Assembly: GCA_003864495.1 (NCBI GenBank)
Contig: ML133482.1
Coordinates: 183,365 to 247,364 of the forward strand
Length of the DNA: 64,000 nt
From: Nemopilema nomurai
Taxonomy: Eukaryota; Cnidaria; Scyphozoa; Rhizostomeae; Rhizostomatidae
Reading direction: 5' to 3'
Of the stretch, positions 7,412 to 35,911 are shown one piece after another. The notes beneath the pieces were generated by a model. It was not told the origin of the DNA, searched no databases, and worked only from the letters and a program-made list of their open reading frames with translations. Numbering within the stretch: the stretch's first letter is position 1; each line of letters begins with the position of its first letter. The translations under genes were made by a program, and so were the position numbers.

Positions 7412-8771
7412 TGCAAACGCAAGGTTTCCGTGTAACCTTAGCTTATATTTAAAATAATTCGGAATCTTTTAGCTCTGAGATTCGGGTCCTCGATTATTTT
7501 GAGGAATCCAAATATTTATTGAAAGTTAAATGTTGATTGGGTAGTGATGGTGACGTAACTGGGTGGCAAAATTAGACTTTTATAACATTTCTAAATTAAT
7601 ATATGTACCCTGACTACCCTGAATGATATAGGATTTGCTCTAAAGATAAAAAATTATGAAGTCTTTTTTGTTCACACACTATGTCGCGACACTTTAGCCC
7701 ATCGTGGGAGACATTGGGTGCGTCATTTGAAATCAGTTGCTTTGTTACCCTACTTTAAAGTTAATTAGTTAATTATCATTCCAGACTATATGTTGTTTTC
7801 ATTTGTCTGGACATTTAAAGCTACTGACAGTGTAGAAATCTAATCTTAAGATACATTTTCATATCCGACACCCTTCAAAGTATGCGAAAGTCAGAAATTG
7901 ACAAATAGCCATTAACGAAAAGCTTACAAAACAAACAGCCAGTTGCAAATCAAAATCCACCTAACTTCATGAGGCAGAAAATCTAGGCTGTCAAATTGCA
8001 GAGAAACCAACAATTCTAGTCAATTCTAAATAGATTTGGGCTTTGTAGCCCCCAAGCGCTTAAGCTGAGAAATATATCACTGAGGAATTTATTTTCAACA
8101 ATAATGCGTTTTTCTACAATAATGCCATGCTTGCTCAAGTTTACTTTTCGAACAATTCAAGAGCGCCATTAACGTTTGGATGACACTAACTCTCTTTCCT
8201 TTAAATGAATTTCAGCAGTTATTGATCCATAAATGATCGCTTTCCATAATCTTTGATGAGAAGAACAGATAATACTTTTCAATGGAAACATTCAGGAATT
8301 AAAAGCATTGGTTTGCTCCTTTTTTATCAGCCCTTTAGGAATTTGCATAATCTGATTTCAAAGATTTTCAGTACAAAAGATTTGCTAGTTTCTGCTCTAT
8401 CTAGTTTCAAAATCTCTTCAAGACCAAATAAAAACCAAAAATTGAGTTAAAAAACTTTTTAAGCTTATGTGTTTCCTACTCAAGACTAAACTGTTGACAG
8501 TGCAATGCACAATATAAATTTTGGCCATTGTTTTTGGCATTAAAAACAGGTTCAGTGAAGAGGGGCTACACCATCTCCAGTTTGGTTGGGTAAACTTCAC
8601 AATCAAAAGTTTGTTGTCAGCTCATAGACACTGGAAACTATGAGAAACCTGTAACCCTGCTCCAGATATTTATAAAATACAGATATACGATTTTTACTAC
8701 AATGATACTTCTACAAAATCATTTACTTTATCACTTGTACTTTGTCATAAAAATCAAACTCTTCAATAAAT
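7412..8771. other. Intergenic, no gene recognised
   Basis: AT-rich sequence with only short, unconvincing open frames on both strands. Confidence 0.5.
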
Positions 8772-10456: not shown

Positions 10457-11012
10457 TAGGGGAAGTATATTGTAGCCCTGTCGTTATAGTTAAAGTAGTT
10501 ATAGTAGCATGCAATGAATGATTCACGTCCCCTTCTCTGGTTATTGCGTACTTGGCAACTCCCTTTTTCATTGGCTCTCATTGTAGTCTATTCATAGAAG
10601 TTCTTTTTGTCTGCCTTTACTTTGTAAACTTATTTTTCTTTGCGTATGTCATGGGAGTTTTGCCAAAAGATAAGTGAAAACACTTACTTAATCTTTAATA
10701 TCATCTATCAATGCTACAGTTGAGTGCAGTAATTCAAGTTTCCATCTAAGATTAGAAAACCTTCTTTGAATTGGTTCTGAAGGAATTTAGCCTAATACGT
10801 TTCGTGACAAGAATAGAATGTTCCAACTGATTTCGTTGAGAAAAGCACACATACTGTTATCTTCAAAACACAATCAGGCTGGAAATCTAATTAGCTGAGC
10901 TTTTTAATTAATATTGCTGTCTCTAAATGACTCTGAAAGCCAAGTAGTGCAGCCGCTAAGCAGTTGAATTGTGCATTTTATGATACAAGCATGAAATTTG
11001 GTACAAGTACAC
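10457..11012. other. Upstream flank of the cysteine synthase gene
   Basis: Unique AT-rich sequence that should include the promoter of the minus-strand cysteine synthase. No exon or repeat was identified. Confidence 0.4.
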
Positions 11013-14680: not shown

Positions 14681-17600
14681 AGGTAGAGCCAGGTAATCTA
14701 ACGCATCAGATGGGTGACTCACAAACGCAGGGAAAAGGGAATGAAGTTGTAGAGATGAATCGCCAGCAGAGGCTAAAAAGGTGTTTTCCTACCTTTCTTT
14801 TAATGATTTCCTCCTCCATCACCATGACTGCAAGACACTTTATGAAGAAATTTCTCCTTCGGACTTTTGGCTAGTTGTCCGCCTACAGATGAGAAATGAC
14901 AGAAATTGCATTTATTACGTATATATCAAAGCTTTTCGTACAACGCTAGAGAACAGTCGTCAATTCATCTGGGCCTAGCCTAAGCGGGTACCGCTTTTTA
15001 TTAAAAAGTTCTTTTGATTTTTCTCTATATTAATCAGAGACAATACAAAATCGCCAAATGTTCCTAGTGTCTCCTATGTGGATGATGGTAAACCGGAGAT
15101 TTGGGGGGAATTGCGCCCAGTGGGGTAGAGCTATCAAAATAACAAGGGGAGCTCTTGCACAAAATATTGCTACCCTGGGTAGTGAGTCTGGTACCCAGGA
15201 TAAAAATATTAAGACACAATAGAAAACAAAGAAGTTTGCCAATTTTCCGCGTTAGCAAGGGGACTCAGGCCCCTCTAAGCTCCCTAGCTCTAAAACCCTA
15301 ATTACATCCTATCCCCTTACCACGCTCAATAAATCGCTCTTTAAATCCTATATTCGATAAAAGCTAATGTTGAGGTCGATTTAGGCGTTAAAGATCTTGC
15401 TGCATGTTTAAGTAAAGATGCAGCTAGAAGACACAGTTAAGCAATGGCAAAATCAACGCATTATTTTGATTTCTACAGATAACATAAACTTGACAGAAAA
15501 TCGAAGTCCTGCTTGAGCTACCTGCTGGCCGCTAGACTACAACATCATCTTTGCACCTCAAAGATCCACAGTCTTATTGCCATTTCCTTAGGTGACTGGG
15601 TGTTTGTGTTTAGGTATGGGGACAGAGTGACTTTGAATAGTGCAATCTAACCAATCAAGCCCATTTCCTAATCCTGGATGTCCTGTGGAAGCTTCATTCG
15701 TTTCTTTAATATCCAGCAAATGTTCTGCTATTGTTTTGCTGGCGACAAAATCTCTACCACGTTGTTGTGGTTGTGGTTGGGGCTACGGAGATAGGTTGGT
15801 ATCTCGTATCTTTTCAAAAAAGAAATACTCAATACTTATAAACTACTCCCTTTTGTGCTTCTGCCACCCAATGAACGTAGGGCAACAGTAAATTAGCAAT
15901 GATTTCGAAAGACAGAGGAAGTGCGTTTCTTTCAAGTGGCATTAAAGCCCATTCATACTCGGAGCGTGGCCGCCATGACTCCACAGTTCTCCATTCAGGG
16001 ATTAACGTAGCCCTCACGGGACACTTTGTTTAATAAGTACCCCAGAATTCAGTTTGAATGACATGTTGAAAGAGGTCAGTGGTCTGGTTTAAGCAGAGTG
16101 AGACTGACAGTGTTGGAAGCTCGCATGGAAAGGCAAATCTGAAGGTAATGATTTATAAAGAATTTTAGATTCACATTAATTCTATAATATTGATTAGTTA
16201 AGCAGACTATAGAAGCGGTTTAACTAGACGTGTGTAAAATGTGACTCAGATTGGCTGTATAGTTGGCTCTGAAGTTGAACTTGGCTTTCACCTCAGCAAG
16301 ACTGAGGAGTTGTTAGCCAGTTGTTTAATCGACAAGCACAAGGCTTTATTTTGGAATAACCTAAACAAAAGTGTGCAGATAGGCTACTGGATTAATGTAG
16401 CAAAAATTATTTTGACTTCAGGAGAGAATAGAATAGTGAGGAAATTTTATAAATTTAGAGTTTTTAACAAGTAGCTGCTCAAAGTGTTCAGAAATCCACT
16501 TTATCGATGAAGGAAGCGAAAATTTATCACAGGCTAATACAATCGAAGCCCGATAGAACCTCGATAGAACTTTATTATTGATACTGAGGTAGGGAGAACT
16601 TAATTGCGTTATAGATTGCAATGGAAATTTATGGCTAATTATAACAATATAAAAAGTGGAACTGGAGACTGAGAAGTGGTTCTGGGCATCGACTATGCAA
16701 ACCACCGTAAGTATAGCATTACAGAAATGACCGATTGGTGTGCATTACCTTTTTGACATTTTGTTACATCTGTTGGCTCTTAAAGCAAGATCTCTCGAAT
16801 TCCAGGGCAAGTCAAATACCACACTCTCGCTAAAGATATCTAGGCCACAGAATAGAGATTCTCTAATCTGTGTCGTTGAAATACTGAAGAGATTAACTCT
16901 GATTGTGTTGCTCAAAATCAAACAACGTCTTTAAAATATGACAGCAAGGTATTGCAACTGCCTCTAGTAGCCTTCCCCATCTTATCTATTTATTTATTTA
17001 TAACCAGCATAGCTTTTCAGACAGCATTCTATTTTACGTAGCCCAAAGAGGTTATTAAAGTTGTCCATTCGCATCGGTCTTGTGCATAGCAATGCAGGTA
17101 ACGCAGATACAGAGCAGAGCATCTTACTTCCTTTTATCAAAAACGGAGGCAGGGGCTGAAAGAAATAGAAAAGTACCAAGTGCTTGATATATTGCAAAAC
17201 AACTTGGAGTAGCAGCTCTATCCAGCAAGTCGATCTTGGCAGATAAATTTTCTAAACTATGGGCTTTGGATCGATACTAGGCTCAAAGAGAGTCCGTGGG
17301 TGGTTCAAAAAGTGGTTCAATTAATCAAAAGAGTTAGAGGCAGATTTTAGAGGCTCTTAAGGGATTTTTAGGGGTGACTTTAAATAACTCTCAAGTTAGA
17401 CCAAGTTGAGTTGACCTTATTGCGCAATCAAGATTCTGTGAAAACCCCAGATACGTTGTTCCATCTCCAGACAATTTCTCTTTAAAAGCGGAAGACAAGC
17501 TGTGGATATTTGCTTGTTCAAGTCAATTTTGCGTAGTTTGTCCCACATTTTTCCAACAAGGATTCTCCCAGAGTATTGACAGTAAACCCATTGAACAAAT

Positions 17601-20038
17601 ATGTGAAATTAAGTTTATTGTGCAATGCTTTTCAATGGAGAAAAGCCACGCAGCAATGAATTACTATTCATTCCCCCAAGCTGGGTTTCTGGCTTATCAG
17701 TTGACATTGGCCATTCATCTGGTTCGTTTCCTTTTCTCTCCCAAAGCCGCAAAGTAATTACCAAAATAAACAGAACGCGCGCGAGAAGTGTAAGTCCATA
17801 GGCAATGTATGCAGAATGAGGCAGAAACCATCAATCCTTCGACAAACAGGCCATTTCCTCGATGTTTCCGAAGTAAAGCCGTGAAGCCATGGCTCTCTTT
17901 GTTCGGTCTACTTTCGCAGGCTGTCGATCACGTGACTCTAACATCTCGACAGAGGCTCAGGCTAAAATTGGCATAGAACATGTACGAGGTTTTTATCACC
18001 TCGCCGTTATTCGTACACACCTGTATATGTGTTTGATGCCGAATTAGAATCTAGCGGAGCTATCGAAAGCAAGAAAAACAGTCTGGATACTGCGATATTA
18101 TGAATTGGCCAATTCACAAATTGATTAAGTTCAAGGGCTAAAATATTCCTGAAGAAGAAATTTTTTCGTGTGGTGATTCCCACTGAAAGTCAATGAATGC
18201 TGGGAAGGTTTCTGGATTGTCCAAGGCGGGCCCTCTCTTGCTTTGGTTACATCGAGGAATCCGCCAGGGCAGGATACAATGGTTTCGAAACTTTCGAAGC
18301 TAAGTGACCGATCAATGACCGATTTGTGTCGAGATTATGGCGTGGTCGCTGTGTTGCTCTCAGTGTCCCCGATGGCTCCCCTGCAATCGTGGTAGAAAAG
18401 AAAGCATATGACTGTGTCCTGCAAAGGGTTAGCACTTATTTGGCTGTTCACCAGGCGATAAAATGTCATATCTTTGACAGAATCAGGATAACATTACGGT
18501 TGCACTGTCACTGACCAGAGGAAGGTTGTCGAAAAACAATAGAAGCCCAAGTGCACACCTATGCCACGGTCAGTTCCTATTGTTCTGTGAGGACGGTTTA
18601 CCTGAAAGGGTGTTAATGTCTGGAGGAAGTTTAACAACTTTTCTGGACTCTGTTCTTTGACTTCTAGACGAACAGATGATATCAAGTGACTGATCATTGA
18701 TCGATTGGTGGAAATGATTTTGAACGCAAAAGATTGCTGCCTAGGATATCACAGGCCCCGGCGTTTTTACACAGAGCTGTGTTCTTTGTGCGACCAGCAT
18801 CAATCAAGCGACAAATAAATTTCAGGCTCTTAACTCATAAAGAGAAGATTGCGACATTTGTTTGAGGATATTACAATATTTGTTTCATATTGTCGTACAA
18901 GCTGTAAATCCCACTAAGGGTTCATCAGAGAGCTTGATTATTCAGCAAATCCAAGCATGCTTTGTCTCTGAACACTGAATGCAATGAAGTCATCTTTCGG
19001 TAAAAGAGCTGAAAGCTGATTTTAATAACAGTTGCAAGCCCATTCCAAATATCTCGAGCAAAAAGCGGCAGCCATAAGGAACGTAGCGATTTATTTATTT
19101 TTGTTGCAGGTTATCCATGAAAAGAGTGAGGGATTTGATGTTTGTTGCGTCGTGACGCAATACTGACCAGAAGGCTCGAGGGGACATGACTTGGTGAATC
19201 GTAAGAACATCATTTGCGGATACACGACGGGATATGCGGTAGTCAGGAGAAGGCGGACACGAAAGAGAAGTAGGGGAAATGTGAGTTGCTGATACTTCAG
19301 TTAGTTAAGATGGCTATAATATCCTTACGTCATCTGAAGGCATGGAATAACGTCATCGACAGAACTTCAGGATCAGAAATGTATACCTGTATTATGGTTG
19401 TATATTAGGGCCTTTCGATAGTGATGTCATTTTAGTAAGTTCTATCAAAGCATGAAGGAAATCATCACGGTAATACAGTATGGAATTGAACTGTGAAGTT
19501 GCCTGATAAAAATTACCGCATCAGTATTATTGGAACTTGGTTTTTAAACATTCTTTGATATTACAGGGCTGGTGAAACTGGGGGCAATCACCCCATGCGT
19601 TTTTGTAGAGTAAACTTGTTTTCAAGGTCAGATAAGAATTAGAAATAGAGAGAAGCTCATGATCCTCACATTCTCCAAAATAACAATTCTCCAGCGCCTT
19701 AATAACACCTAAAAATCAACTCGAATTATTTTTAATTGTTTACAACTTTATATCCTCATCCCCTACATCAACGGTAATATTGGACAGGCCCATACTTGTG
19801 GCGTACTCATACTCTGCTTCAAGGAGAAACATTTTTCAACGCTATGAAGTCAAGTTTTATTATCAACAAGGGCAGGCGTAAGGTTGTAACTTTCCCTTAG
19901 ACTCAATACATCTGGCAACTTTTCTTTTTATTTAAATTATTAAATCTGATAATGTATTTGCCTTGCTTTTAGTGCAGTATCTCTAGCAACTGCGAGCTCT
20001 GTGGAAGACAAGCCTGGACAAAATAAGTCGCCACAAAC
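14681..20038. other. Long gene-poor stretch upstream of the DSL-array gene
   Basis: No exon, RNA gene or named repeat could be supported. The part next to 20039 should hold the promoter of the DSL-array gene. A CTTTTAG acceptor-like site at about 19965-19972 may end an intron in its 5' UTR. Confidence 0.45.
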
Positions 20039-23000
20039 ATGAACTGCAAGAAACTCAATTTGCTGTTCCTTCTCGGGATCCTGTTCCTTCATGTAGGTGT
20101 ATAACACATTATTCCTAGTAAATGTGTCCCAACCTCTGTCTTGTCAAATGGCGGAGCCAAAAACGTCTATGTCTTGGAACTAGGTTGGATCGCTAAGCAG
20201 GGAAAGAGCACGAATTAGACAACGGCTTTCGGGGAATTTCCTGTTATCTTTACTTTCGCCTTTCCCCCAGAGAGCTGTGTTCACTAAAATCAACTTATGC
20301 TTCTATGTAGCAGCCTGTTATAATGTCGAAGGCCCAGCTTTTCAAAGATTGATTTTAGAAGATGTCAAACAAACTTATCAACAATCGAACTGGGCCTAAA
20401 CAAGAGAAAAACTCAGCTTAATGGCGTTAGTTTTTTAAAAAAAGAAGAACGATTGAAAGGACCATGATTTGAAGATTAAATTAACTAGGTAGTGAACCTT
20501 TTTGTCTCACGTCAAATGGCTCAAAGTTTTTCAATAACGGTGCTGTCTGTTACCTAAAAAAAAAATTGATACATAGAATTTTTTAAAAACGATGGCCGCA
20601 ATAGGTAGCCATTTGCCGATCAGATTACCTTGTTTTCTGAAGGACTTTTCAAGTTCCAAATTATTAAAAATTTTCCCTTTAAATTCTTCAGGCTTTGGTT
20701 CAGGGTAAAACAAAAATCACCCTGCGTCTCAAAAAGTTCGTGAATACGAATGACAAGCTTTGGGATGGAAGCAGATGCGATGGCCTTGTGGGTGGTGCAT
20801 GCGAAAACAATTTTGAGATATGTGTCAAAGGCTCTCCTCCTGTGCCAAATTCCATTAGCAGTTGTTTGTATTACAAAAAGACTTCGTCATTTAGCGGAAC
20901 AACGATCGATTTCGAGCGAACATCGACGGGAATAGTCAGAGACATCCATCTTGAATTTGATTCGTATACGGTAAGGGATTATTTAGTTATGTCTAGAAAC
21001 AAGGCTTTCGTATTACAATACATCACGGTGGCAAGAAATGGTGGAAACATAATTTTTGCTTGCTTAAAGCACATTTTAGTCCGAAACTCTTCAGAGCATG
21101 CAAATGTAAAACACTTAAGTTTTATCAGCAACCGTCTATCTATATTTGTTTTCTTTTTACCATTTTGCAATGTTTGCATACTTTGAGGAGACTCTGGCGA
21201 GACCTTCTTGTTATGAAGAAAAGCAGTAACAAGAAGATATGTTTCCGCTATTTCTTGCCATTGTGGAGATATTAATGTCTGGTTGATCTGTGCGTGGTTG
21301 ATCTACTTAATCAACTCGTACAATGCCTGCCAAAAGTCCTTTAAACACCTCAGTATTTTCTCTGGTTTTTGCATTTTTCATTTCTTTGACGCGTAACTAG
21401 TTGTTAACCCCCCTCCTCCCCCTAAAACAATGTTGGTAACAAAGTATAGCATCTAGTCAATCTGGGGGAAAAGTTTGGAGTAAAATTGACGCTTCGTTTA
21501 GCAGCAGGACAACATTGTTCGTAGAGGGGGGGGGGGTGGGTGATAAGTGAACGTGAGTCAAAGAACTGTCGTAAGTGTGCCAACAATTTTGGCAGGCATT
21601 GTATGCGTGTACACATTTCTACTTATACACACAACAACATGCCTTTGCACCATGTACACTCTTCCACTACAGGGGATGGGATTCTTCATGAAGATCATGG
21701 ACTATGACAGCTTCAGCTCACAAGACCATGTGGACAACCATGCATACGGCGAGGCATTTATACCTGGGTATAATAATCAGATTCTAAGATACACGCGCAT
21801 GTCTTATGGGTTGAGATCCAGCTCAAAGTCTACACTCAGTTTCACGGTGCAAGCCTCCTGCCTGCAGTACTATTACGGTAACACTTGCAGTACGTTTTGC
21901 AAGCCTACAAATGATGCTACAGGTCACTACACTTGTGATGCCTCTGGCAATCGTGTTTGTCTCGCAAACTGGTATCAGTTGCCTGCTTGCCTGAAGTATT
22001 GTGAACCGAAGGATGATGACACAAATGGGCACTACACTTGTGACAGTGGTGGAGACCGAGTCTGCCGGCCTAGTTGGTACAATCTTCCTGGATGCAAAAC
22101 ATTTTGTGAAGCACAAAATAACAACATAACTGGTCATTACACATGTGACATGGCGGGACAACACGTATGCCGTCCTAACTGGTACAAGCTGCAAAAGTGT
22201 CTGAATTATTGTAAAGCAAGTAATGATAGCATAAATGGTCATTACTCTTGCTTAGATAATGGAACAAGAGTATGTCACGTGAACTGGTTTAATCACCCAA
22301 ACTGTAATAGATACTGTAGTCCAAAAAATGGCACTGACGGGCATTACACATGTGCCAAAAATGGCAGTCACATATGCCTACCGAATTATTATCATGGTCC
22401 AAACTGTACCACGTACTGTGAGCCAAAGGATGATAACATTAATGGCCATTACACCTGTACCAGCGATGGTACTAGAGTTTGTCGCTCAGGCTGGTTCGTC
22501 GCGCCAAACTGTACCACGTACTGTGAGCCAGAGGATGATGACGTCAATGGTCACTACACCTGTGGAACTGATGGGGAAAGAATCTGTAGAGCGAACTGGT
22601 TCAGGAAGCCTGATTGCAAGGCATACTGTGAGGCAAAGAACACCTCAGCCGAGGGCCACTATAAATGTGACAGGAGTGGGACGCATATTTGCTTACCAGG
22701 TTGGCACAAAGCACCTGCTTGTAAGAATTACTGTGTTCCCCAGGACGATGATACCAATGGTCACTACACTTGTACAGTGAATGGGTCGCATATTTGCTTA
22801 CCAGGTTGGCACAAAGCACCTGCTTGTAAGAATTACTGTGTTCCCCAGGACGATGATACCAATGGTCACTACACTTGTACAGTGAATGGGTCGCATATTT
22901 GCTTACCAGGTTGGCACAAAGCACCTGCTTGTAAGAATTACTGTGTTCCCCAGGACGATGATGCCAATGGTCACTACACTTGTACTGTGAATGGGTCGCA

Positions 23001-26000
23001 TGTTTGCTTACCAGGTTGGCACAAAGCACCTGCTTGTAAGAATTACTGTGTTCCCAGGACGATACCAATGGTCACTACACTTGTACAGTGAATGGGTCGC
23101 ATATTTGCTTACCAGGTTGGCACAAAGCACCTGCTTGTAAGAATTACTGTGTTCCCCAGGACGATGATACCAATGGTCACTACACTTGTACAGTGAATGG
23201 GTCGCATATTTGCTTACCAGGTTGGCACAAAGCACCTGCTTGTAAGAATTACTGTGTTCCCCAGGACGATGATGCCAATGGTCACTACACTTGTACTGTG
23301 AATGGGTCGCATATTTGCTTACCAGGTTGGCACAAAGCACCTGCTTGTAAGAATTACTGTGTTCCCCAGGACGATGATGCCAATGGTCACTACACTTGTA
23401 CTGTGAATGGGTCATATTTGCTTACCAGGTTGGCACAAAGCACCTGCTTGTAAGAATTACTGTGTTCCCCAGGACGATGATACCAATGGTCACTACACTT
23501 GTACTGTGAATGGGACGCATATTTGCTTACCAGGTTGGCACAAAGCACCTGCTTGTAAGAATTACTGTGTTCCCCAGGACGATGATACCAATGGTCACTA
23601 CACTTGTACTGTGAATGGGACGCATATTTGCTTACCAGGTTGGCACAAAGCACCTGCTTGTAAGAATTACTGTGTTCCCCAGGACGATGATACCAATGGT
23701 CACTACAATTGTACTGTGAATGGGTCACATATTTGCTTACCAGGTTGGCACAAAGCACCTGCTTGTAAGAATTACTGTGTTCCCCAGGACGATGATACCA
23801 ATGGTCACTACACTTGTACTGTGAATGGGACGCATATTTGCTTACCAGGTTGGCACAAAGCACCTGCTTGTAAGAATTACTGTGTTCCCAGGACGATGAT
23901 ACCAATGGTCACTACACTTGTACTGTGAATGGGACGCATATTTGCTTACCGGTTGGCACAAAGCACCTGCTTGTAAGAATTACTGTGTTCCCCAGGACGA
24001 TGATACCAATGGTCACTACACTTGTACTGTGAATGGGACGCATATTTGCTTACCAGGTTGGCACAAAGCACCTGCTTGTAAGAATTACTGTGTTCCCCAG
24101 GACGATGATACCAATGGTCACTACACTTGTACTGTGAATGGGTCACATATTTGCTTACCAGGTTGGCACAAAGCACCTGCTTGTAAGAATTACTGTGTTC
24201 CCCAGGACGATGATACCAATGGTCACTACACTTGTACTGTGAATGGGACCCGGGTGTGTCGTGAAGGCTGGTATGGAGAGCCAAATTGCACTGTTTATTG
24301 TGTTCCAAAAAGTGACAGCATAAACGGTCACTTCAATTGCTCCTTGAATGGATCGCGTATTTGCCAGACTGGTTGGTACAATGAACCACACTGCAATGTA
24401 TCTTGCGAACCAAAGGATGATGAAATTTATGGACACTACAACTGCACGAGAAAAGGCGAGCGACTATGCAAGGAAAATTGGTACATTCTTCCCAACTGCA
24501 CACAGTACTGTAAACCACGATCCAGTCTGAGTGGGAATTTTCTGTGTGCGAACAATGGCACTCATGTATGTAGAAAAGACTGGTACACTCTTCCGAACTG
24601 CACTAGATTTTGCCGGCCACATAATGATTCTAGTGGCCATTTTGCCTGTTCCAGCGAAGGTAGTAGACTCTGTCATGAAAACTGGCATGGTCCAACTTGT
24701 AACACCTACTGCAAGCCTCAAAACGATATCTTTGGGCATTACACTTGTGACAAGAATGGATCACGCATTTGCCTTAAAAACTGGTTCAAAGGACCATACT
24801 GTACAGTATATTGTGAGCCACGAAATGATGCATATGGTCACTACACTTGTGACATGGCTGGAGAACGCGTTTGTGCCAACAACTGGTACCAGCTTCCAAA
24901 CTGCACACGCTATTGCGTGGAAACTGAAGGTACGCATTATAACTGCACTAGTGAAGGCGAGAAAGTGTGCCATGCTGGTTGGTACAGCAAAGAGGGAGGT
25001 GTTTGCACCAACTATTGCTGGCCACAACGAAGCAACCAAACAGGTTATTACGATTGCAGTTCTAATGGCGAAAAACGCTGTTTACTTAATTGGTATGGCG
25101 AGAATTGCACTGCATATTGCGAATCAAGCAGTGATGATGAACAAGGCTTTTTCAACTGCACTTCAACAGGAGAGAAGAGATGCGCGGAGAACTATTATGG
25201 TGCAAATTGTAATATTTCCTGTATCGCACGGGATGACATAACCGGCCACTATACGTGCAACTCTGAAAATGGAGACAAGAGATGCATGTCTGGATGGGCA
25301 GGCATCTACTGCGATGAGACCAAGTTATTGCCAGCATCAACTGTCGATTTGCATTCAATACCTTTCATTATGACGTCATCAAGCTCCTTTGGCGACGATT
25401 ACAAAACAATTGCTGGAAGCTCAGTTTCGGTGTCCATCTCGTTAATAAAAATAGTTGCTTCGACCACTTTTATGGTGCAAAAAAATGCAAGCACTGTTAA
25501 ATCAATGTCCGTATTCAACACAATGAAGCTGCCCTTAACGAGTTTGTCTCTAAAGAGTCAAGCAGCGACATCAGTCGAAAGCATTACCACAAAAAAGGAA
25601 ATCGTTCCATCAACGGCCAGAAGCTTCGGTACAATAATACACACAGACACAAGCATACTAACAACAGTAGTAAAACGGTCAACATCAACAGTGAAAAAAC
25701 TAAGCAGCACAATATCAAATACAGCTTCGTCTATTTCGATATCCATCAAATCCAATCCTGCATCAGCAAGCTTTGCATTAGAGAACATCACATCGGTGTC
25801 AATATTAGCTACTATTGGTCCCGACTCAGGAAGTGCCAAAGGGACAGACACTTTAGAATGGCTCACAACGTCAAATGAAGGAATAGCTATAATGTCTGGC
25901 AGTGGAGTGGTGCTACTAATTCTAATTGCTCTTGCTGTGGCTCTTTACTTTTTTGCAAGGTTTGTCTCTTCAGTTCTTTTTGTCTCTTCAGTTTTGATTG

Positions 26001-27443
26001 AAGCTCATTGTTGTGCAGCAGTGAATGTATGCAGTGGACTTTCAGAAGGACTGTACACTGCGCTATTATTTGATAAGAATTAAAGCTAGGTAGAAAGTGG
26101 GAGAAAATTTAAGTTTAATCACGAACCACGAATAACCAATCAATTTGAGACTTATCATCGTGTTCTCTGCCTTCCTAGAGAGGGCGTGGAGAGGAAAAGT
26201 ACCCTCTTTACCTAAGCAAGGAAGGCAGACTGGATTTTTGAGATCAGAAACGCTTGATTTAAGGGTGAATTTCCCTTCCGTAAGTCTAAAGGAAATATAT
26301 TATTGAACGGCCTCTCGACTTTCATGCGCCGTTTACACTTAGTCGTGCGCAATGGTGAACTGAGTAAAGGTCTTCATTGAGCTAGTAATAGGAGAGAGGG
26401 GATAACAAATCGCCCAAATAAAGTGATATCAAAATTATTAAGTGTTGGGAATTTTTGCTACTCTAGAGTAATCAGAGCGAAAAGACAACTCTTGCAAAAC
26501 GCTAATTTGAACAAATGCTTTGTGGTACAAAACTTCACAATGGCTAGAAAATGCGGAACTAGTTTTCGCATACTTAAAGTACTTTTTTTCGTCCAACACT
26601 CCTCAGAGTATGCAAACGTCGGAAGATAACCAAAAACTGACCTAATAAATAGCCAGATGCGGATATTTTGAAAAACGCTAATTTTGAAATAACAAAGGTA
26701 TTGGAATTCGAGTTTTTATGCAAACGTCGTTACTCCTTGTGTGAAAATTACTCTGTCTCTTATTGTAGGCCCGCAAAAAGACCTAGAGCGAAGTCGGAGC
26801 AGACTCACAACATACCGTTTACCAATTTAGAGCACGCTGGCAAGAAAAAGTCCAGTTTGTAAGCATACAACAGCATGCATTTTCTTCAATGATTTCCTCT
26901 TTTGTCTGTTAGTGCCCGATCGCACCCTATTCCGTGGTACCTTGATATCTCTTCTTCAAAAGCATTACTGCCTAGGGCTCTACTAATTGTAGTCTGTTTT
27001 GGCATACTGTGTGATCATGTTTGACTTCTTACAAGCAAACTTCATGTCATGGAAGCACAGTTTTTATAGAAATTTATTTACAAGATTCACAGCAGCAGAA
27101 GTATGTTTAGATGAGGAAAATTAGTGCCTATCAGATTTCCATCATTTGAGTTATAAATTGCCTTTCTAGCATCAAAGAAATGGAAAAAAGGAAGTTGTAT
27201 GACAACGATGACATGGATTACGCAATGTTGACAACGCAGCACCCGATGAGCTTCAAAAACACCCTCTTCAACGAGGAGTCCCAACTAGTGTCCGCTGGGT
27301 CCCCCGAATTCTCTCCAGCTAATGCAAAAAGAACTGACAAAACTGGTCAGAGAAAGCAAACAGTGACAAGAATATCAGTAAGAAGTGGATCAATGACTGG
27401 GTACCAAAACCCAATGATAGGTGACAGGGACAGTAACTTCTAG
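20039..27443 (+). CDS. Notch-ligand-like membrane protein with about 33 tandem DSL units
   Basis: Five exons with matching phases: 20039-20092, 20692-20970, 21673-25959, 26769-26858, 27170-27443 (stop TAG). Exon 1 encodes an 18-residue signal peptide start (MNCKKLNLLFLLGILFLH). Exon 2 plus the start of exon 3 resemble the MNNL region of Delta/Jagged ligands. Then come a complete DSL start (CLQYYYGNTC) and 33 consecutive units of about 35 residues with the DSL hallmark GHYTC and a C-W-C tail, a Ser/Thr-rich stalk of about 185 residues, a TM helix (VVLLILIALAVALYFF), and a tail of about 120 residues starting with basic residues. Canonical EGF repeats are absent. The coding length plus 8 missing nt gives about 1,663 residues. 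Four indels in the near-identical units break the frame as written. Role: probably cell-surface adhesion or Notch-type signalling (inferred from the domains). Confidence 0.82.
21400..21545. repeat. Imperfect inverted repeat with poly-C / poly-G arms
   Basis: A C-rich run followed by CTAAAACAATGTTGG at about 21410-21436 is mirrored by a complementary G-rich stretch at about 21500-21540 in intron 2 of the DSL-array gene. It could be a decayed fold-back element. Confidence 0.5.
21868..25316 (+). repeat. Array of 33 DSL-core units (about 105 bp each)
   Basis: Each unit follows C-x(10-13)-C-x7-C-x(8-10)-C, as in YC..DDDTNGHYTC..NG.HIC..GW...AC. This matches cysteines 3-6 of a DSL domain; cysteines 1-2 exist only before unit 1. 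Units 1-8 and 23-33 are diverged (for example KPQNDIFGHYTC in unit 28). Units 9-22 (about 22725-24245) are nearly identical at DNA level, a recent expansion. Spacing between the paired cysteines fits the DSL disulfides C3-C4 and C5-C6 and not the EGF pattern. Confidence 0.88.
23040..23960 (+). other. Four frame-breaking indels inside the homogeneous DSL units
   Basis: Compared with neighbouring identical units: at about 23053 one C of CCCC and one GAT are missing (-4); at about 23412 two bases of GTCGCATAT are missing (-2); at about 23887 one C of CCCC is missing (-1); at about 23947 the A of TACCAGG is missing (-1). Net loss is 8 nt. No in-frame stop by substitution is seen in the array, and the flanking units and downstream exon read normally. 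Confidence 0.85.
25321..25959 (+). other. Ser/Thr-rich stalk and transmembrane helix of the DSL-array protein
   Basis: After the last unit cysteine the protein becomes rich in Ser and Thr with few aromatics, a mucin-like stalk likely to carry O-glycans. A hydrophobic helix (GVVLLILIALAVALYFFA) follows. The exon ends inside codon AG|G, with a donor at 25960. Reading through that donor would add a short tail to a stop at 26083, which I judge to be intronic. Confidence 0.75.
26769..26858 (+). other. Symmetric cytoplasmic-tail exon of the DSL-array gene
   Basis: A 90-nt exon, phase 2 in and phase 2 out, acceptor TATTGTAG, donor GTAAGC. It encodes a basic segment (RPAKRPRAKSEQ) just after the TM helix, a typical stop-transfer sequence. 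If the donor is not used, the frame ends two codons on (TAA at 26860) with a C-terminus KKKSSL. If the exon is skipped, exon 3 joins exon 5 in frame. Confidence 0.7.
27170..27443 (+). other. Terminal exon of the DSL-array gene
   Basis: Acceptor CCTTTCTAG, phase 2. It encodes about 90 polar residues (IKEMEKRKLYDNDDMDYA and onward) ending DRDSNF at TAG. There are many lysines, which in Notch ligands can be ubiquitylated for endocytosis (family knowledge). A short Ser-x-Phe C-terminus could be a weak PDZ ligand. Confidence 0.65.
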
Positions 27444-27811
27444 CGTTTGCTTTAAAATTTGGATTCCTCTTAAAAAGATTTTGTCACATACACTTGGTAT
27501 TAGCTTAAAGGCATTGAGTCATGATAAATGGAAAGCGTATACCCAAATTGCAAAAATTGCTGGGTCATTATAATAGCTTCGTTTATCTGATTGGATGTCA
27601 AGCAAACTGCACAGATGATGCTATAACATCGCATTTGATGTCTGATCACATGAAAGCTAATTCATCACAAGAAAACGGACAACAGCCCGTGGAAAACCTC
27701 AATTTACCATGACTCAATGCTTTTGAGTTACGTCATTTTCGAGTGCCACTTGAACTGCCGGTACTAGACATACTTTCGGACTGTTTGAAACAGGTACTGA
27801 GTCCTATAGTA
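27444..27811. other. 3' flank of the DSL-array gene
   Basis: Expected 3' UTR and terminator region. No clear AATAAA was identified. Confidence 0.4.
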
Positions 27812-28221
27812 AGCCTGGTTTCCATATAGTCGCTGAAGTCGCTGGAGTCCCCAGGATCGCTCAAGAATGAATTCAGTGACTCCAGCAACAGTCTGTCTCC
27901 ATTTGGTCGCTGAGTGTCGCTCGATTCCAGATCAACGCGGTCCAGAAATCTGGGCCTAGCAATTAAAATTGCGCGCGAGCATGCACTATGCTTTCTAGAA
28001 GTCGCTGACGGTCGCTGCCATGTTTCCATTAAAACATTTCTTTGGGTGCACTCAACCGTGGGTCGCTGAGATAGAACTTCAGCGATCCCAGCGACTGGGT
28101 TGTTGAGGGTCGCCAGCAAAATAAATTAGCATGTTTCCATAAAGTCGCTGGGGTCGCTGAACCCGTTTTTGAGCGATCCTGGCGACTCCAGCGACTTCAG
28201 CGACTATATGGAAAGCAGGCT
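27812..28221. mobile_element. 410-bp MITE with TIRs and internal GTCGCTG motifs
   Basis: The left end AGCCTGGTTTCCATATAGTC and the reverse complement of the right end match over more than 50 nt with few changes. GTA flanks both sides (27809-27811 and 28222-28224), a likely 3-bp target duplication. The interior repeats GTCGCTG and CAGCGAC many times and codes for nothing recognisable. It is a non-autonomous DNA element; the superfamily is not certain. Confidence 0.85.
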
Positions 28222-29982
28222 GTAGTCGTAACTACTTTGGCGTGGAGAGAACCCCTTTTATCCAAGTTACGCATGATATATCTAATCTCCGATTCGGGTT
28301 ACATGTTATCAGATCATAGAATGCATTCAAGCTTCCAAGGAAGGTGGGGCTAAGAACTTGATAATTGAGATATAGAAAGAAATCACCGAAAGTCTGCGGT
28401 AGATATTCTTCTTCAAGCTGGATTGCCTTTGAGCCTCGTAGAAATGGCAACACATGGGATATAAATTAGAGCAATGGCTTGTTATATATTACCACGACTG
28501 CAAGGTGAATAAGTACGACTTGGTGTACCATAGTTCCCGTCCATTGAACCATTCGAAGGCAGGAGCTCTTAATTAGAATATATAAGCCTATTTGCCTTTC
28601 TTGTGCAGGAATGGTTTATTTCTAAACCCCATAATATCTCATGACGTAAATTCATTGTTTTACAAAATATCTTTTCAACGCTACCAATTACCTCAGTAAA
28701 ATAGAGGCCAGTTGCCATGAAGATCAAACCAATCTGATTAATTCAAATTATTAATATGATCAGCAGGACTGTCTTAATTCTAAATTTCTTGATGTAGGAA
28801 ATTGTACATTTTCAAGTTTGTAAATAAATAGGGATAATTTTAATTATTTATATTGATTAAGTAAAATTCTCTTGGAAATGTCAACATACATCACGTTGTA
28901 CACTTCATAATTTCAGTATTCTTTTTGCAAGTCTGTTATCTGGGTTGTCAGGAATTTGTTCTAGTTCTCCCCGACAATTACTTCTCATAGCAATGAACTC
29001 ACAGAAGTTATCCGTTTATGATACTTCGCTATAATAGACTGCTCCACTCTCGCTAGTTTTTTACTTGATATCTTCCGTCTGTTTATATACTTTTGTATAT
29101 AAATTTCTGGCTAAGAATTGCTGATTAATAATGACTTATTTTGCATAATATTACGAAATGACCAAATATACCCCTTAGAGAATGTTCGCGATAAACCCTC
29201 TAAGTTTCTAGAAAGTTGTAAACAAAAACGAAAGCAAAATTGGGCTTTCTACGATATTATGATCAGCAACTACAATTGATAAGCAAGCATACTGGCACTC
29301 AAGATAATTATGTATTTCATACGCAATGTCTAGAAAGTTCTAACTGTTACTAGATTCTCGGCGACAGGGTATTCTCCTTTTGTGGTTATTATACAGGTTT
29401 GAAAGACCTCCTAAGATTTTGTAGTTGCTCTGATTTTTGAAAAATTGCCTGTGAAATGTACTGCTTCAATGCCATCTATCAGAGCGTACAGGCCGATATT
29501 GCTCCGTGGTTATTTTTGCTCTGTTGTCATTTACAAAAGAGCTGCTTGTTAAAATTCTCCAAAGATTTTACAGAACGAAATCTCTAGTTTAATGCATTGT
29601 TAGTGATGTACGAGTACTGCGGACTGTTTTCAGAGCCACGAGTAAATTGATTAACGAACTGACTTTGTCCCTGAACAAAAAACAAACATTAGCTTTGAGT
29701 TTACTAACAGGCTTATCCAGCAGGAAAATCTATTGTTTTACATAATGAATCAAGTTAATTGTTCGTTGAATGGATTTTTTCGAAAAACAAAGGTGTTAAA
29801 AAACAAGCAATATTAGATTCAAGGCAATCACCCAATCACCGCCTTTCTTTTTATAGACAGCAATGGAATAGAAAGGAGTGTTGAATGAATAGGTTTTTCC
29901 TTCTGTGAGCAATGCTGTAGGTTCTGGTCTCTCGCGGTCCCGCTTGGTCCAACGCTAACGATGACGGTGACATAAAGGCTGT
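28222..29982. other. Intergenic, no gene recognised
   Basis: AT-rich. It includes the region downstream of the minus-strand MFS gene, likely its 3' UTR, but no clear poly(A) signal. Confidence 0.45.
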
Positions 29983-31347
29983 CTAATTTAGATGCTTGTT
30001 CTTTGTCTCTACAACAACTGTCACTGCCATTACAAGAGCCACGGCAGTCAAACCATGCAACATGCCAAATGACAATGGAATGCTGGAATGGAACACGTAA
30101 ACGGCTATGAACTGCCCAAATAGAAGACCAATTTGGCCACAGGCTTCTGAAATCCCACACCCAAACGCCCTTACTCGAGTTGGAATTAGCTCTGCTCTGT
30201 AGACATAGACAACAATGTTAAGACTGCAAAATGACAACGAAAAGAGTATCGTCGCAATGACGAGATGCCATCCACGGATTTTCCAATAGAAGGGTACAAG
30301 GCAGCCTCCAGCGTACAAAAACAAAATGATAAATGCCACTCTTCTCGGGCATTTCTTTAAGAGCCAAAATGTCGGGAAAGCAGAGAAAAGAACCGCTATA
30401 ACCATTGCCCCACGATACTTATAAACAAGACCCTCAGAACACTTTTCGCATTGTGAAATTTCAGAATTCTCCCCAAACTGCATCGATCCGAATCGCATTG
30501 TGCCAGCCAGCGAATTAGAATAAAACTGCAAGAATGAGGCAAGTGCTATTCTCTTCATGACTCCGAAACCCGACAGCTCTTTTTCGTCGCCTTCTTTCAT
30601 CGAGTCGTTACCTTCTTCTGTGGTATCTGCAGAGTCATTTGAAGAGACTGACTCATACCCTGCACTGCAAGTAATTCGGCTACTTCTGGAAATCTTCTGC
30701 AAAATTTTCAACGCTTCATCTTCTCTTCCAGCAGATGCCAAAAACCTTGGTGATTCGGGCAAGAAAAAAACAGCAAATGCACCCAGTGCAATGGGTATCG
30801 TCTCCGCCAAAATGCCAAACCATCGCCATGTTAAATTCTCGAGGGAGACCATGCTAACGAGAATGCTGTACCCAGCTCCTGCACAAAATGCTAGTTCAAA
30901 CAAAGACATATATTTACGCTTTGAAATTGGTAAAAATTCCATGATATAAGTAAACGAGACCATAATACTGGAAGAAACCAAGCCAATCATCCCTCGAATC
31001 AGAGCCAAATAAAACACGCTCGAGGACAGCGCGTAGAGTAATGTCAAATAGGAATTGAACGTAAAGGCCAAGAGCATAACTCTGCGCCTGCCATATCTGT
31101 CCGATAATTTACCCAATATAATCGACCCTGCTATGTTGGTCGCTGCATCGGGTAGCACGAGCCATGCGGCATCCATGTATTTCAATCGCCACTGGCATCG
31201 TAGATATGGCTCGATGATTGCCAAAAATCCCGATGTTGAGGCATATGAAAACGGTCGTAAGGCTATGATGAAAAATGCGATTAAATGGAACTTTCTGAAG
31301 CCGATTTCTTCCAACATTCGATCAACGTTTAGATTCTCGTGTGCCAT
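29983..31347 (-). CDS. SVOP-like MFS transporter, complete and intronless
   Basis: 454 codons from ATG 31347 (MAHENLNVDRMLEEIGFRKF) to a stop at 29983. It is a full 12-TM major facilitator protein: the IGFRKF start, LGKLSDRYGRRR in loop 2-3, WRWF, LPESPRFLASAGREDEAL after TM6, an acidic central loop (about residues 230-265), and in the second half RAELIPTRVRAFGCG and a final VETKNKHLN resembling the ETKG ending of SVOP/SLC22/SV2 carriers. The closest recognisable relatives are SVOP-like proteins. They are expected in vesicle or plasma membranes; the substrate is unknown. The start is supported by alignment with the paralogue at 1-773, which begins at the same place relative to the first helix. 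Lack of introns in both suggests a retro-derived or ancestrally intronless family. Confidence 0.92.
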   Translation of the reverse strand: MAHENLNVDRMLEEIGFRKFHLIAFFIIALRPFSYASTSGFLAIIEPYLRCQWRLKYMDAAWLVLPDAATNIAGSIILGKLSDRYGRRRVMLLAFTFNSYLTLLYALSSSVFYLALIRGMIGLVSSSIMVSFTYIMEFLPISKRKYMSLFELAFCAGAGYSILVSMVSLENLTWRWFGILAETIPIALGAFAVFFLPESPRFLASAGREDEALKILQKISRSSRITCSAGYESVSSNDSADTTEEGNDSMKEGDEKELSGFGVMKRIALASFLQFYSNSLAGTMRFGSMQFGENSEISQCEKCSEGLVYKYRGAMVIAVLFSAFPTFWLLKKCPRRVAFIILFLYAGGCLVPFYWKIRGWHLVIATILFSLSFCSLNIVVYVYRAELIPTRVRAFGCGISEACGQIGLLFGQFIAVYVFHSSIPLSFGMLHGLTAVALVMAVTVVVETKNKHLN

Positions 31348-34300
31348 TCTGCTGTCTAACGGAATGGTGATTGTTGCGCTAAGGAAGATTAGGATGCCCT
31401 TTTAACTGAAATGCCTGTTGCGTAGCAAAAGGTATTCATTGGATTTCAAGACCCTTAAAACAATGGATAATTTATGGCAAAGATTTGGTTCGGTAAGTCT
31501 ATGCAATGCATATGCATCAATGGTTGCACGTTATCAATTCCTGAGGCCCATTGATCTTTCTCTCAAATGGTTCTAATTTGCAACTTCTTGTAAAAAGCCA
31601 CATCTCGTATCTTTGTTTTGTTTATAGAAGAGTGGTCTCGAAAATCAAGGACTGCTTTTCTTTTAGAAATGTTAAACATACCCTTCCCTAGTTAGGGTAT
31701 ATAATAATCTGCTTAAGCCTCATTTCTTCTCTCCTTCTCTATTACAGCCATTCGAAGGTTCAAAACGTGCTTTCAACTTAGCATATGCAGTTCTATTTTC
31801 CTCCATTCAACCAATGCTGCCATGAATCATTGTGTGCTTATTACGGACTTCACCCCTCGTACACCTTTTGTGGAAATTCTTTTGTTTAATCTGAAAATGC
31901 CCAGAAATCCTATTGTTTTAGGAAAAAATCTCGCTCGCTAAATTCTAAGGGAATTTCCTTAGAATGTGGTCTATAACAGACATACCTTTTTTGTTTGTAT
32001 CAGATATTTTGTCTCAAATATTTCAACTCTGGTGCAAGTCAACAGAGCTTAATTAAAAAGTGGATACTTAAAGATTCATGATGATACGATACTTGCGTTA
32101 GGAAAGACTAGGATGGTCTTTAAACTCATTTGTTTGTTTTGCAATGCGGTTTGCAGGTCATAATTGACTGCTCTTGCAAATTACCCACAAAGCATTGAGA
32201 GCAATTTCAACAGTGCACAGGGCTCTGCGGAAAGGGACTCCACAGGTCTCAGCGGAAAGGGACAAGTCACAGGTCTCTGCGGAAGGGGACAAGTCACAGG
32301 TACAGAGGAGCAAAACTAAAGTGTAGCAGGAACAAAATTTATTAAGAAAACTGCAATAATGAATGGCAGCTATCAATTCTCAAACTCAGTTCGACAGTCG
32401 AGACCTCGGCTGGGTCGTGTGTAGCTCGCCATTTGGTGTGTTGTCCAATCGCTGTTTGTGAACTTCCAAGAATGTCGAATACAAAGGGGTGACAGTGATT
32501 GGCTTGAAGCAAGAAAGATTGGGTCTATTGTTAATTTGTACATGATTTCGAAATGTTTAGCCAGAAAAGCAAGGGTCACAAAGGAAAGAGGTATAGGCCA
32601 AAAAGGTGATTCCTGGAAGTTCATAAAGACGGCAGAACAAGGCGAGGATGACAAATGGCAAGGGTATTGCCTAGATAAGACGTGAAGGCAGTTTCGCTCA
32701 GAAAAGATAGTAGGAGTGATAGTTCCTGTAACAGAAATTAGCAACAAGAAAGATTATTGCGAAGAGTCTTGTTGTTTTACAGAAAGGCGATTAACACCAT
32801 CAATACCTGAGCAAAACTTTGTGTCTCCTGCCTCAGGCATGCGAAAGCCATTTTGACACCACTTTTGTATAAGGAACTTTTCTTCAGTGTCACGAAATGC
32901 AAATTTATGTTTGTGAATATGAGAACCATTTGACTAAGAACTAATGCTGAAAGCTCGTTTGATAAATTTGAAGTAGAACTGCACCTCTTTCAATTGTCAG
33001 TTCTGTAAATATTTTTTCAGCTACTGCTTATGGTTATATGGACAACATGGCTGTTCCTAGAATATTTTTGAAGACAATTCAGTGAACTAGGCGTGCACTC
33101 CGTGAACTTATGATTGTGTGTGCCACTCATATTATACGGCCAGGAATAAAAATGTTATTACTAAACGATTAGACAGAGTTTGGCACAAGTCACAAGGCCA
33201 ATCCATTACCTCAAAATTCTAATGCATCTATCATGTCACCAAACCCACTATTTTTATCTTCTTTATCGTGATAACTTACCCCTCATTTTTTTTGGTAAAA
33301 GTAAAAAATAATTTCGAGCATTTACCTTCTTTGAGCTCGAGATCGGTGAAAATTGTTTTCATGCACACGCCATTTTTAAAATCACAAGAAAACTTCGATG
33401 GAAGATATAAACTTAAACAATTTTCTGTTGTAGGAAAAGGTACTCCACAAAGACTAGCAGCAGAGTATTACTTTGCTTTTCTATCAATTTTGAATTTGAA
33501 ATCATTTACTTTTAGTATACTCTGCTTTCTTGATCACGTCATTTTCAAAATCCCGCCAAAACTGTGGTGGGGAATCGTTTATGTCGCCATTCAGTTTAAT
33601 AAAATTGTATTCTAATCTTCAGCACCGCTTGATTCGAGCTGCAGTAGGTGGATTCGAGCCTTAGACTTCTGAACTATTATTTCCAACATTAAGTTGGTTA
33701 TTATTTGTTATGAAGGCCGTTTGGTCGATATCTCAGACTCATCTTTTCAATCAAGGGATGGTAGATATTTGCATTTTCAATTCATTTACGAGAAATTTGT
33801 AGATAATTTTCTACTTTAGGGAAAGGTACTCCGTAAAGCCAAGACGCAGAATATTACTTTGCTCCTTTTCAATTATGAAATATGCTCTGTTTATTGCCTG
33901 TACATTTGCTAGCAAGGCGCCAAGAGGACCGCATGTTAAAACTCGCAGCATACTATTGATAGAAATAATGAACTCACCTGCTGCATATTGCCATACCACT
34001 CTGCAGTGCTTAGGGTGAAATTTAAAACTCTCTTCATGGTTGATTTTTCTTGTTCATTTACCAGTTTATTTCTTGCTAAGATATTCGAAAAGCTGCCAGC
34101 CAGCCTAGGCCAACACCTTGCACCACGCTTCCATAAGAGATATTTGAAGAAATTCGACGGGCAGCAAACATAATCGTGGCTTTTGTTTTAGCAGCGCAAA
34201 TTCACAAGGGAAATTCACCTGATTCGTTGATCACTATTCCCTAGATAGAATACAATTCCACTGAGAATATTAAGGTTGTTATTTTCACGGAAAAGACTCT

Positions 34301-35911
34301 CACGAAAGTATTGGATTGCTACTTCTGGGACTTAGTAAACGAGTGTGCAGGCCACTTGACATTTCTTCGGATTTGGACTTGTGGATATAATTGATTAGGC
34401 TATTGAGTATGAAACCCGTCCTAATAAATCTTTCCTTATATTTTCAAGGCCAACTTTGTTTCTAGTTGCCTCTTCACTGTTTCTCAAAGACCTCCACGGA
34501 GGTGCTTTAATTATCACTATTAGCATTTGACAGACAATGATGGAGACGAGATGATGATGATGACACGGGAAAACAGTCAGTGTTACTGCCCTCTTTACAA
34601 TGCAAAGCCGAGAAGACGTTAGCTAAACATTGACAACAACAACAAGACCGTTATGAACAAAAATCAAACAAATTTTGTGAAGGCATTTAAATAAGAGAAA
34701 TTACCACTGTGCGAAGCTTATACCAATAGTGGTATATGATACAGCCAGACCAAAGCAGAAACTGATCTAAAAGTTGTTTAATAGCCACCAGCAAAGAGTA
34801 TCTCACTTTTAAAAACAGAACTTGAAAATATATAAAACGAGCTTGTTGCATGGTTTCTTTCCTAAGGGCTCTTGTGAAATAGTTTTCTTATTTCCTTCCT
34901 CTTATTTCCTAAGGGCTCTTGTATCTCCCTACAGGGTTATCCCCTTGCATGGTTCTCCTCTCGCAGGGTTTCCCTTTTGCTTGGTTCTCCCTATGCAGGG
35001 TCCTCCCCTTGCAGGGTTCTCCTCTTGCATAGGTCTCCCCAAACTCAGATCTTCCCTCCAGCTTATAACCAACTCAAAGCAAGTCTGATACGCAATCACC
35101 CAGGAAGCTAATTAGACGGTTCATGATAAAAATTAACAATACTTGCAAAATTTGAGAACTTTCACAATTTAACTTATTACAAAGAAAACTTATCTGATGA
35201 CAACTCAGTTTATCCGCCCAAGTCACAGTTGACGAAAATTCACTTCTCGTAGTGCATTTACAAAATTTAATGATCACTCTTCATCTTTTATAGATTTACT
35301 GGTCTACATTCGTGAACGTTGTGGTCTACATCCGTGCAGATCATTCAATTTAACCCACCCCCCATTTCTCCCCTCCCAGAAAGATATCATGTTTGACGCT
35401 ACCTTTAACTTGGCAAATCGCTACTTATTATGCATTATGCAAAGTTAGCAACCATTCTGGTGTAATCAAATAATATTTATCAAGCATTATCTAATGAATG
35501 CAGCCTGTCTAATCTACTAATGATCATTCTAAAAAAGAAATAATCCCATTCCTTCATTGGAAAGCAATGAAATTCTGAAGGCGACATCTTCAAATGCACT
35601 ACTTTGTACAACGATGTCCCAGATATCTTCATTATGACGTCATCACCAAAATAATTGCGACTTTCAGTTACTGAAGCTATCTTTCTTATATCACAAACAC
35701 GAAGCACTGTCATTTAGATTTTGTGTCGCTGATTTCTTAAGGGTAGACCGTGAGTGTGGTGGTGCCTACCATCTACCTCTAAGACGCTAGCTTGCTATTA
35801 GAAATTGCTGAGTGGGACCTATAGGCCACAATATGCACATGTTAATAAACAATTAAACAATATTTCGATTCATATGAATTCATACTGACTGTTTAACAGT
35901 ACCCCAGGTAA
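31348..35911. other. Intergenic region between MFS gene and ARFGEF 3' end
   Basis: No gene is supported. It contains a short 28-bp tandem repeat (about 32215-32300, AGGTCTC...GGACAAGTCAC), two diverged copies of a 70-bp segment (about 33425-33495 and 33808-33880, sharing AAAGGTACTCC and TATTACTTTGC), and a degenerate T/C-rich repeat at about 34900-35050. The last few hundred bases should be the ARFGEF 3' UTR. Confidence 0.5.

Follow-up and report, generated by a model that had tools for sequence, protein, structure and literature searches.

A Notch-ligand-like gene with 33 tandem DSL units in Nemopilema nomurai, and its multi-DSL relatives in other cnidarians

Results

A gene of five exons on the forward strand of Nemopilema nomurai contig ML133482.1 encodes a Notch-ligand-like membrane protein with a long array of DSL units. 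It lies at positions 20039-27443 of the stretch of 64,000 nucleotides that was analysed (positions 183,365 to 247,364 of the contig), which is called the window below. We regard the anatomy of this gene and its homology as secure, and the locus is very probably a real gene, presumably in use. The exon model was read from the genomic sequence; the signal peptide and the single transmembrane helix were assigned by eye. Exon 1 (20039-20092) holds the start codon and the signal peptide (MNCKKLNLLFLLGILFLH) in an open frame that ends at a GT donor and joins exon 2 in phase 0. Exon 2 (20692-20970, with a possible alternative acceptor at 20704, 12 bases further in) encodes the N-terminal half of the C2/MNNL head (MNNL profile E 0.0013, below the cut-off) and has a phase-0 donor after the residues SYT. 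Exon 3 (21673-25959) encodes the second half of C2, the entire DSL array, the stalk and the transmembrane helix. The array is followed by a Ser/Thr-rich stalk (25313-25846) of 178 residues, 36% of them Ser or Thr, and by a juxtamembrane WLTTSNEG motif, recognized by motif alignment, with the transmembrane helix (25847-25959). The cytoplasmic tail begins in exon 4 (26769-26858) with a block IPFTNLE, for which the counterpart IPFSNLE was seen by eye in the related protein P0001 described below, and is completed with the stop codon by exon 5 (27170-27443), which joins in frame. All exon borders are GT-AG. Exons 1 and 2 are in frame, exons 2 and 3 were joined by phase since exon 2 ends in phase 0, and exons 3, 4 and 5 are in frame from unit 30 to the stop. 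The coding sequence has 1664 codons including the stop, with eight deleted bases counted in. In the tail of 121 residues, 12 lysines and one YxxPhi motif (YAML) are present, and an NPxY motif was not found.

By cysteine pattern, the array consists of 30 intact and 3 interrupted units, 33 altogether. It starts with the C1-C2 hairpin of the first DSL domain (CLQYYYGNTC, 21859-21888), where the match to the DSL profile begins at profile position 1. Units 1 to 8 (21886-22722), identified by cysteine pattern and Pfam DSL, differ from each other. They are followed by about 15 near-identical units with a repeat of 105 bases (22720-24289, by Tandem Repeats Finder and cysteine pattern), three of which are interrupted; the program reports the tandem repeat at 22677-24247, with a period of 105, 15 copies and 97% matches. 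The last ten units (24287-25312, by Pfam and cysteine pattern) are divergent and the final one ends in CMSGWAGIYC. An AlphaFold model of the first eight units (21859-22722) predicts a regular array with a mean predicted local distance difference test score (pLDDT) of 87.8. The closest folds to this model are Notch ligands. SCARF1 (8hna) is the first match that is not a Notch ligand, at rank 27 with an E of 1.4e-4, and a fold search with the related protein P0004 likewise placed SCARF1 at rank 27.

The assignment of the units to DSL was assessed with profile searches. Four pieces of exon 3 matched Pfam DSL with E of 4.1e-87 (first 11 units), 7.9e-30, 2.6e-35 and 6.7e-101 (C-terminal piece), and the first unit alone gave 2.2e-13, which places a DSL domain behind the head. 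No EGF-type Pfam profile reached its cut-off on the window pieces (the best, EGF_TEN, scored 25.8 bits against a cut-off of 65), and no EMI domain was found at E up to 1 in five window pieces. Searching the PDB with the last window units (phmmer) returned 11 sequences at E up to 0.01, all of them Notch ligands. A profile of C2 and the first DSL, built from the window and four related proteins (P0001-P0004), matched Notch ligands in 12 of 12 cases at the same threshold, the best being Drosophila Delta (1.9e-26) across nearly the whole profile. MNNL was detected at E up to 0.1 in all five N-termini, with 0.0016, below the cut-off, for the window member alone. The C-terminal half of C2 at the start of exon 3 (21673-21858) carries an Asp, in the alignment to PDB ligands, at the place of Jagged1 Asp140, which passages of a Jagged1 study describe as a calcium ligand (PMC3888931).

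In seven of eight tabulated loci of this genome, a phase-0 GT closes the C2 exon one or two residues past a conserved aromatic residue. The seven are the window (SYT), three other DSL loci (L013, L020, L021) and the EGF-bearing ligands L016, L017 and L018, with the acceptor checked in the window; for the eighth, L015, no phase-0 donor was listed. At L014, which was examined apart from these eight, the GT at this place fits phase 0. On the strength of these sequence comparisons, the window protein is taken to descend from a Notch ligand. An earlier note, made by a model from the letters of the window alone, had read the gene in much the same way. Its signal peptide, Ser/Thr stalk, transmembrane helix and tail are borne out by the five-exon model (signal peptide and helix by eye), and its estimate of about 33 units agrees with our count. 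The DSL core as the repeating module holds up as well, with the DSL profile by far the best and Notch ligands as the nearest folds to the eight-unit model, the kind of unit structure prediction which that note had had in mind. So do the absence of EGF repeats, to judge from the Pfam EGF-type profiles, and the MNNL-like N-terminus, for which MNNL alone stays below the cut-off and the profile of C2 and first DSL finds only Notch ligands in the PDB.

In three window units (23035-23135, 23346-23448 and 23869-23971) the frame is interrupted by five deletions of eight bases in total. All five lie inside the near-identical block, which has a chance of 0.003 if they were independently spread over the coding sequence. 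Interrupted units aligned to the unit consensus or reference (three from the window, one from contig C78 and six from the paralogue on C107) had only deletions in 10 of 10 cases. Because only deletions occur and those of the window are confined to the near-identical block, errors in the repeat consensus are the simplest reading, and the window deletions are probably assembly errors. Most of the first 20 kb of C78 aligns in long pieces to window positions 17235-36649 at 96-98% identity, and C78 probably carries the other allele of the gene. Its array has 28 intact units and 1 interrupted unit (29 units), and its frame is broken by a deletion in the array and another in the stalk, where a base is missing from C78. 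Two extra units sit in the divergent part of the C78 array, where units can be distinguished, and the length difference between the alleles is therefore probably real.

A genome search with Pfam DSL (PF01414) gave 108 matches at E up to 0.001, and a hand count assigns 30 of these to the window gene. The loci form a graded series from one DSL followed by EGF domains to 2, 5, 29 or 33, and 38 units, as seen in views of 9-10 kb per locus, in which more distant exons could be missed. The longest array, at 159 kb on C107 (L011), has 32 intact and 6 interrupted units (38 in total). Five Pfam DSL matches are found at 2815 kb on C130, and two each at 2827 kb on C130, on C132 and at 83 kb on C107 (L020). 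The locus at 61 kb on C107 (L021) has one DSL match and a second, broken DSL followed by three EGF-like exons, the latter two features by eye, and that at 41 kb (L022) has one DSL match. Two genes on C60 and two on C122 each have one DSL followed by EGF-like exons, as judged by eye. The four loci on C107 lie within about 125 kb and form a local family cluster. Positions 5382-8426 of L011 contain its own array of near-identical 34-residue units, which differ from those of the window. Since the near-identical units of the two genes are unlike each other, homogenization appears to act within each gene. In the genome, MNNL matches occur at eight places, and all of them have a DSL match downstream on their contig; exon 2 of the window gene is not among them. 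The Notch domain NOD matched at two places with equal scores, which are probably alleles.

A protein search gave 14 matches among 2665 candidates, comprising six multi-DSL proteins and eight fish Delta-like ligands. The nearest relative is P0001 from EukProt (14 Pfam DSL stretches), with 46% identity over 55% of the query. The others are P0002 from EukProt (10 stretches), P0003 from Oculina patagonica (15), P0004 from Nematostella vectensis (12; named 'protein draper' at NCBI), P0005 (11) and P0006 from Clytia hemisphaerica (9; named 'delta-like protein B'). These relatives span Anthozoa and Hydrozoa. In pairwise comparisons, units 2 and 3 of the window score best with units 2 and 3 of P0001 and the last four window units with its units 11, 11, 11 and 13 of 13, while window unit 1 scores slightly higher with unit 6 of P0001 than with its unit 1. 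This comparison of unit sequences indicates that the middle of the array expanded in the window lineage. The juxtamembrane pattern W[LM]xx[TS]xxG (window 25829-25959) is present in seven of nine hand-chosen rows, namely the window, P0005, P0001, P0002, L011, L013 and L014; it is missing from the aligned rows of L015 and L020 and, by eye, from P0003, P0004 and P0006. A tree of C2 and the first DSL with 17 rows, several of which lack part of C2, has good support for one of 14 inner branches. Placing the array label on this tree needs two changes, and one change suffices in 6% of bootstrap trees; two row labels overstate the number of units, C130a having 5 and C130b 2 Pfam matches. The two changes arise because Oculina and Nematostella are placed away from the window group in this weak tree, which thus does not show a single origin of the arrays. 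In the tail of P0004, a YDDL-x10-YITL spacing was observed that would fit an immune or phagocytic receptor and that we take to resemble an immunoreceptor tyrosine-based activation motif (ITAM).

To compare the units with a known Notch-binding face, the Jagged1 residues F199, R201, R203, D205 and F207 were used. According to passages of the Jagged1 study, the F207A mutation brings binding of Notch-1 down to background (PMC3888931). An F, Y or W at the F207 place was found in 3 of 30 intact window units (22, 25 and 26) and is missing in the other 27; in units with one extra residue this place was set by position from the following cysteine. On average, the intact units keep 2.3 of the five positions by residue class. 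At the five positions, the near-identical unit, whose copies account for nearly half of the array, reads Tyr, Val, Gln, Asp and Asn. The first window DSL has F, K, T, D and T, corresponding to three of five by class, and no first DSL next to C2 has the F207 aromatic in the window or in P0001-P0006. Units 25 and 26, counted among intact units, keep four of five positions. For comparison, the EGF-bearing ligand L018 of the same genome, located on C122, has Tyr, Lys, Arg, Asp and Tyr.

The DSL gene is flanked by two large open frames on the reverse strand (3-803 and 29986-31401) that, by eye, resemble related transporters of the major facilitator superfamily (SV2-like). Also by eye, open frames on the forward strand (2682-4108) that resemble a THAP zinc finger and, after it, a DDE transposase were read as a putative DNA transposon, and an intronless frame of 399 residues on the reverse strand (9287-10483) as cysteine synthase-like with an N-terminal extension. 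On both strands, the minisatellites at 997-2507, 7003-7449 and 39514-40196 (with SSRLFEYGPI repeats, for example) have several open frames, and on present evidence they are not genes.

Discussion

We propose that the window gene encodes a type I membrane protein that arose from a Notch ligand, keeping the C2 head and the first DSL and lacking the EGF repeats. The DSL domain would have spread into an array by tandem duplication, with each unit contributing a C3-C4 loop and a C5-C6 hairpin. Neighbouring units overlap, in that this hairpin occupies the place where the C1-C2 hairpin of the following unit would be expected, and by doubling for it would make the array a single continuous chain of presumably disulfide-bonded and mostly N-glycosylated DSL domains. 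Such a chain probably forms a long, stiff rod, which would hold a C2 head with putative calcium and lipid binding well away from the cell surface. Rod and head could contact neighbouring cells or surfaces in adhesion or recognition, and the tail could handle uptake or signalling. Binding Notch may no longer be the main task of the protein, and any such binding would be expected at one or two units within the array (25 and 26, counted among intact units) rather than along its whole length. We see about even chances that adhesion or recognition is the main role. More tentatively, the array may represent a new class of extracellular repeat rod in which DSL forms an open-ended, hairpin-sharing chain. 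Cnidarians would then possess length-variable cell-surface tethers with a lipid-binding head, a signalling ligand having been recruited, perhaps more than once, for adhesion or recognition outside the Notch pathway.

Several observations weigh against one or another part of this reading. EGF_TEN passes its cut-off in P0003 (78.5 bits) and P0004 (77.2 bits), in both of which DSL outscores it with 375 and 294 bits, respectively. On exon 2 of the window, the MNNL profile reaches 18.7 bits against a cut-off of 22.5, and the place of the Jagged1 calcium ligand Asp72 is occupied by Glu in the window and by Asn in P0003 and P0004. The eight-unit model has a predicted template modelling score (pTM) of 0.47, the mean pLDDT of the five models ranges from 87.8 to 59.3 and the matches to Notch-ligand folds show root-mean-square deviations of 6 to 10 Å, so that the overall shape of the rod is not established. 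The reading frame is broken in 3 of 33 window units. Between the alleles, the ratio of non-synonymous to synonymous differences per site (pN/pS) is 0.53, based on 36 differences (12 synonymous and 24 non-synonymous) in exons 1, 2, 4 and 5 and the ends of exon 3, with exon 4 taken one base too long and excluding the middle of the array; this is weak evidence for constraint within the species. Finally, among the four EGF-bearing ligands of this genome, L016 (Thr), L017 (Ile) and L019 (His) likewise have no F, Y or W at the F207 place, which makes the loss of this residue a weak argument against Notch binding.

Descent from Notch ligands and the NOD matches in the genome would also suit a multivalent Notch ligand, in which many units each bind Notch EGF11-12 and provide avidity or clustering. 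Units 25 and 26 retain most of the face, the F207 aromatic is missing from most EGF-bearing ligands of this genome too, and the lysines and the YxxPhi motif of the tail are compatible with endocytosis, which Notch ligands need. However, the face is eroded over the array: an aromatic residue stands at the F207 place in only 3 of 30 units, and in the near-identical unit the 201, 203 and 207 places are taken by Val, Gln and Asn. EGF1-2 are absent behind the DSL, and in Jagged1 the exchange of F207 alone is reported to abolish binding above background (PMC3888931). The comparison of the face is suggestive evidence against multivalent Notch binding, which appears rather unlikely to us; an adhesion or recognition rod fits better because the aromatic is kept in so few units and not in the first. 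An EGF-less yet DSL-bearing protein might instead be a decoy or cis-inhibitor that occupies Notch or its canonical ligands without activating; in Drosophila, Notch can be regulated by non-canonical ligands, DLK1 among them (PMC2268666). The same loss of contact residues speaks against this role, 33 units and a C2 head exceed the needs of a decoy, and a 2025 paper reports that DLK1 fails to bind Notch (PMC12216052). We judge it quite improbable.

The name 'protein draper' given to P0004, the ITAM-like spacing in its tail and the rank of SCARF1 as the first fold outside the Notch ligands point to a scavenger or phagocytic receptor that works in the manner of Draper, MEGF10 or SCARF1 and in which the C2 head or else the rod would bind lipid or debris. 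Draper and MEGF10 carry an EMI domain, whereas the window pieces show neither EMI nor an EGF profile above the cut-off. The EGF_TEN scores of P0003 and P0004 (78 and 77 bits) are far exceeded by DSL, and the window tail has a single YxxPhi and no NPxY; this role is unlikely. That the locus is a pseudogene or an assembly artefact, with real deletions or with an array collapsed or inflated by the assembly, seems very improbable to us. The five deletions in three window units, those in the array and stalk of the other allele, the six interrupted units of the C107 paralogue and the pN/pS of 0.53 could be read in this way. Against this stand the restriction to deletions in all ten aligned units and at the single stalk gap of C78, and the position of all window deletions in the near-identical block, as repeat consensus errors would have it. 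Moreover, six multi-DSL proteins are predicted from other data sets, three of them with species names, and the units at both ends of the window array align with P0001 units in roughly corresponding positions. We retain the adhesion or recognition rod as the preferred interpretation.

The DSL domain is commonly regarded as single-copy and specific to Notch. The family described here illustrates how the DSL fold can be lengthened with no fixed upper bound, a point relevant to the published proposal of a DSL origin by truncation of tandem EGF domains. The hairpin-sharing principle was not found in print in our literature searches, which covered mostly titles and the starts of abstracts. A multi-DSL family offers a direct test of DSL working outside Notch signalling. 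In databases, this family is obscured by names such as 'protein draper' and 'delta-like protein B', and counts of cnidarian Notch ligands from DSL matches alone are unsafe.

Among known systems, Delta, Serrate and Jagged share with the window protein the signal peptide, C2/MNNL, DSL and a type I transmembrane topology, and the EGF-bearing ligands of this genome share its phase-0 donor place in C2. They differ in having one DSL followed by EGF repeats, and the well-studied ones keep the Notch face, which the first window DSL does not. SCARF1, Draper and MEGF10 likewise have a long, cysteine-rich ectodomain of short modules, but these are EGF-type, while no EGF profile passes the cut-off on the window pieces. 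A Hydra protein of 332 residues with a signal peptide, compared in passages of its description with a soluble worm ligand, is a cnidarian DSL protein like ours, but has one DSL domain (PMC3180645). Amphimedon AmqDelta4 is described as Delta-like with MNLL, DSL and a transmembrane segment and no EGF, with no mention of a DSL array in the passages concerned (PMC10970066). A Capsaspora receptor tyrosine kinase combines two DSL domains in a membrane protein, but with EGF repeats and a kinase domain too, according to parts of its description (PMC4810162).

The closest precedent is found in passages of Gazave et al. 2009 (PMC2770060), which list Nematostella genes made of DSL domains only (1 to 11) and one with MNNL and three DSL, and leave undecided whether these are true genes or misassemblies. 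The view of the earlier note, to which such an architecture was not known from described Notch ligands, is not supported in the light of these genes. No later study of them turned up in our literature searches, and passages of a 2024 review on invertebrate Notch did not contain multi-DSL genes. A family with 9 to 38 hairpin-sharing DSL units favours real genes as the answer to the question of 2009. Like those Nematostella genes, the window gene is cnidarian, has more than one DSL, with MNNL in its case, and has no EGF. It differs in the number of units, with 33 (29 in the probable other allele) and 38 in its paralogue compared to 1 to 11, in its C2 head, stalk, transmembrane helix and tail, and in belonging to a series of paralogues with relatives in other cnidarians. 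The multi-DSL kind was thus known in passing, and the gene described here is a longer case with a complete architecture and two alleles of different length.

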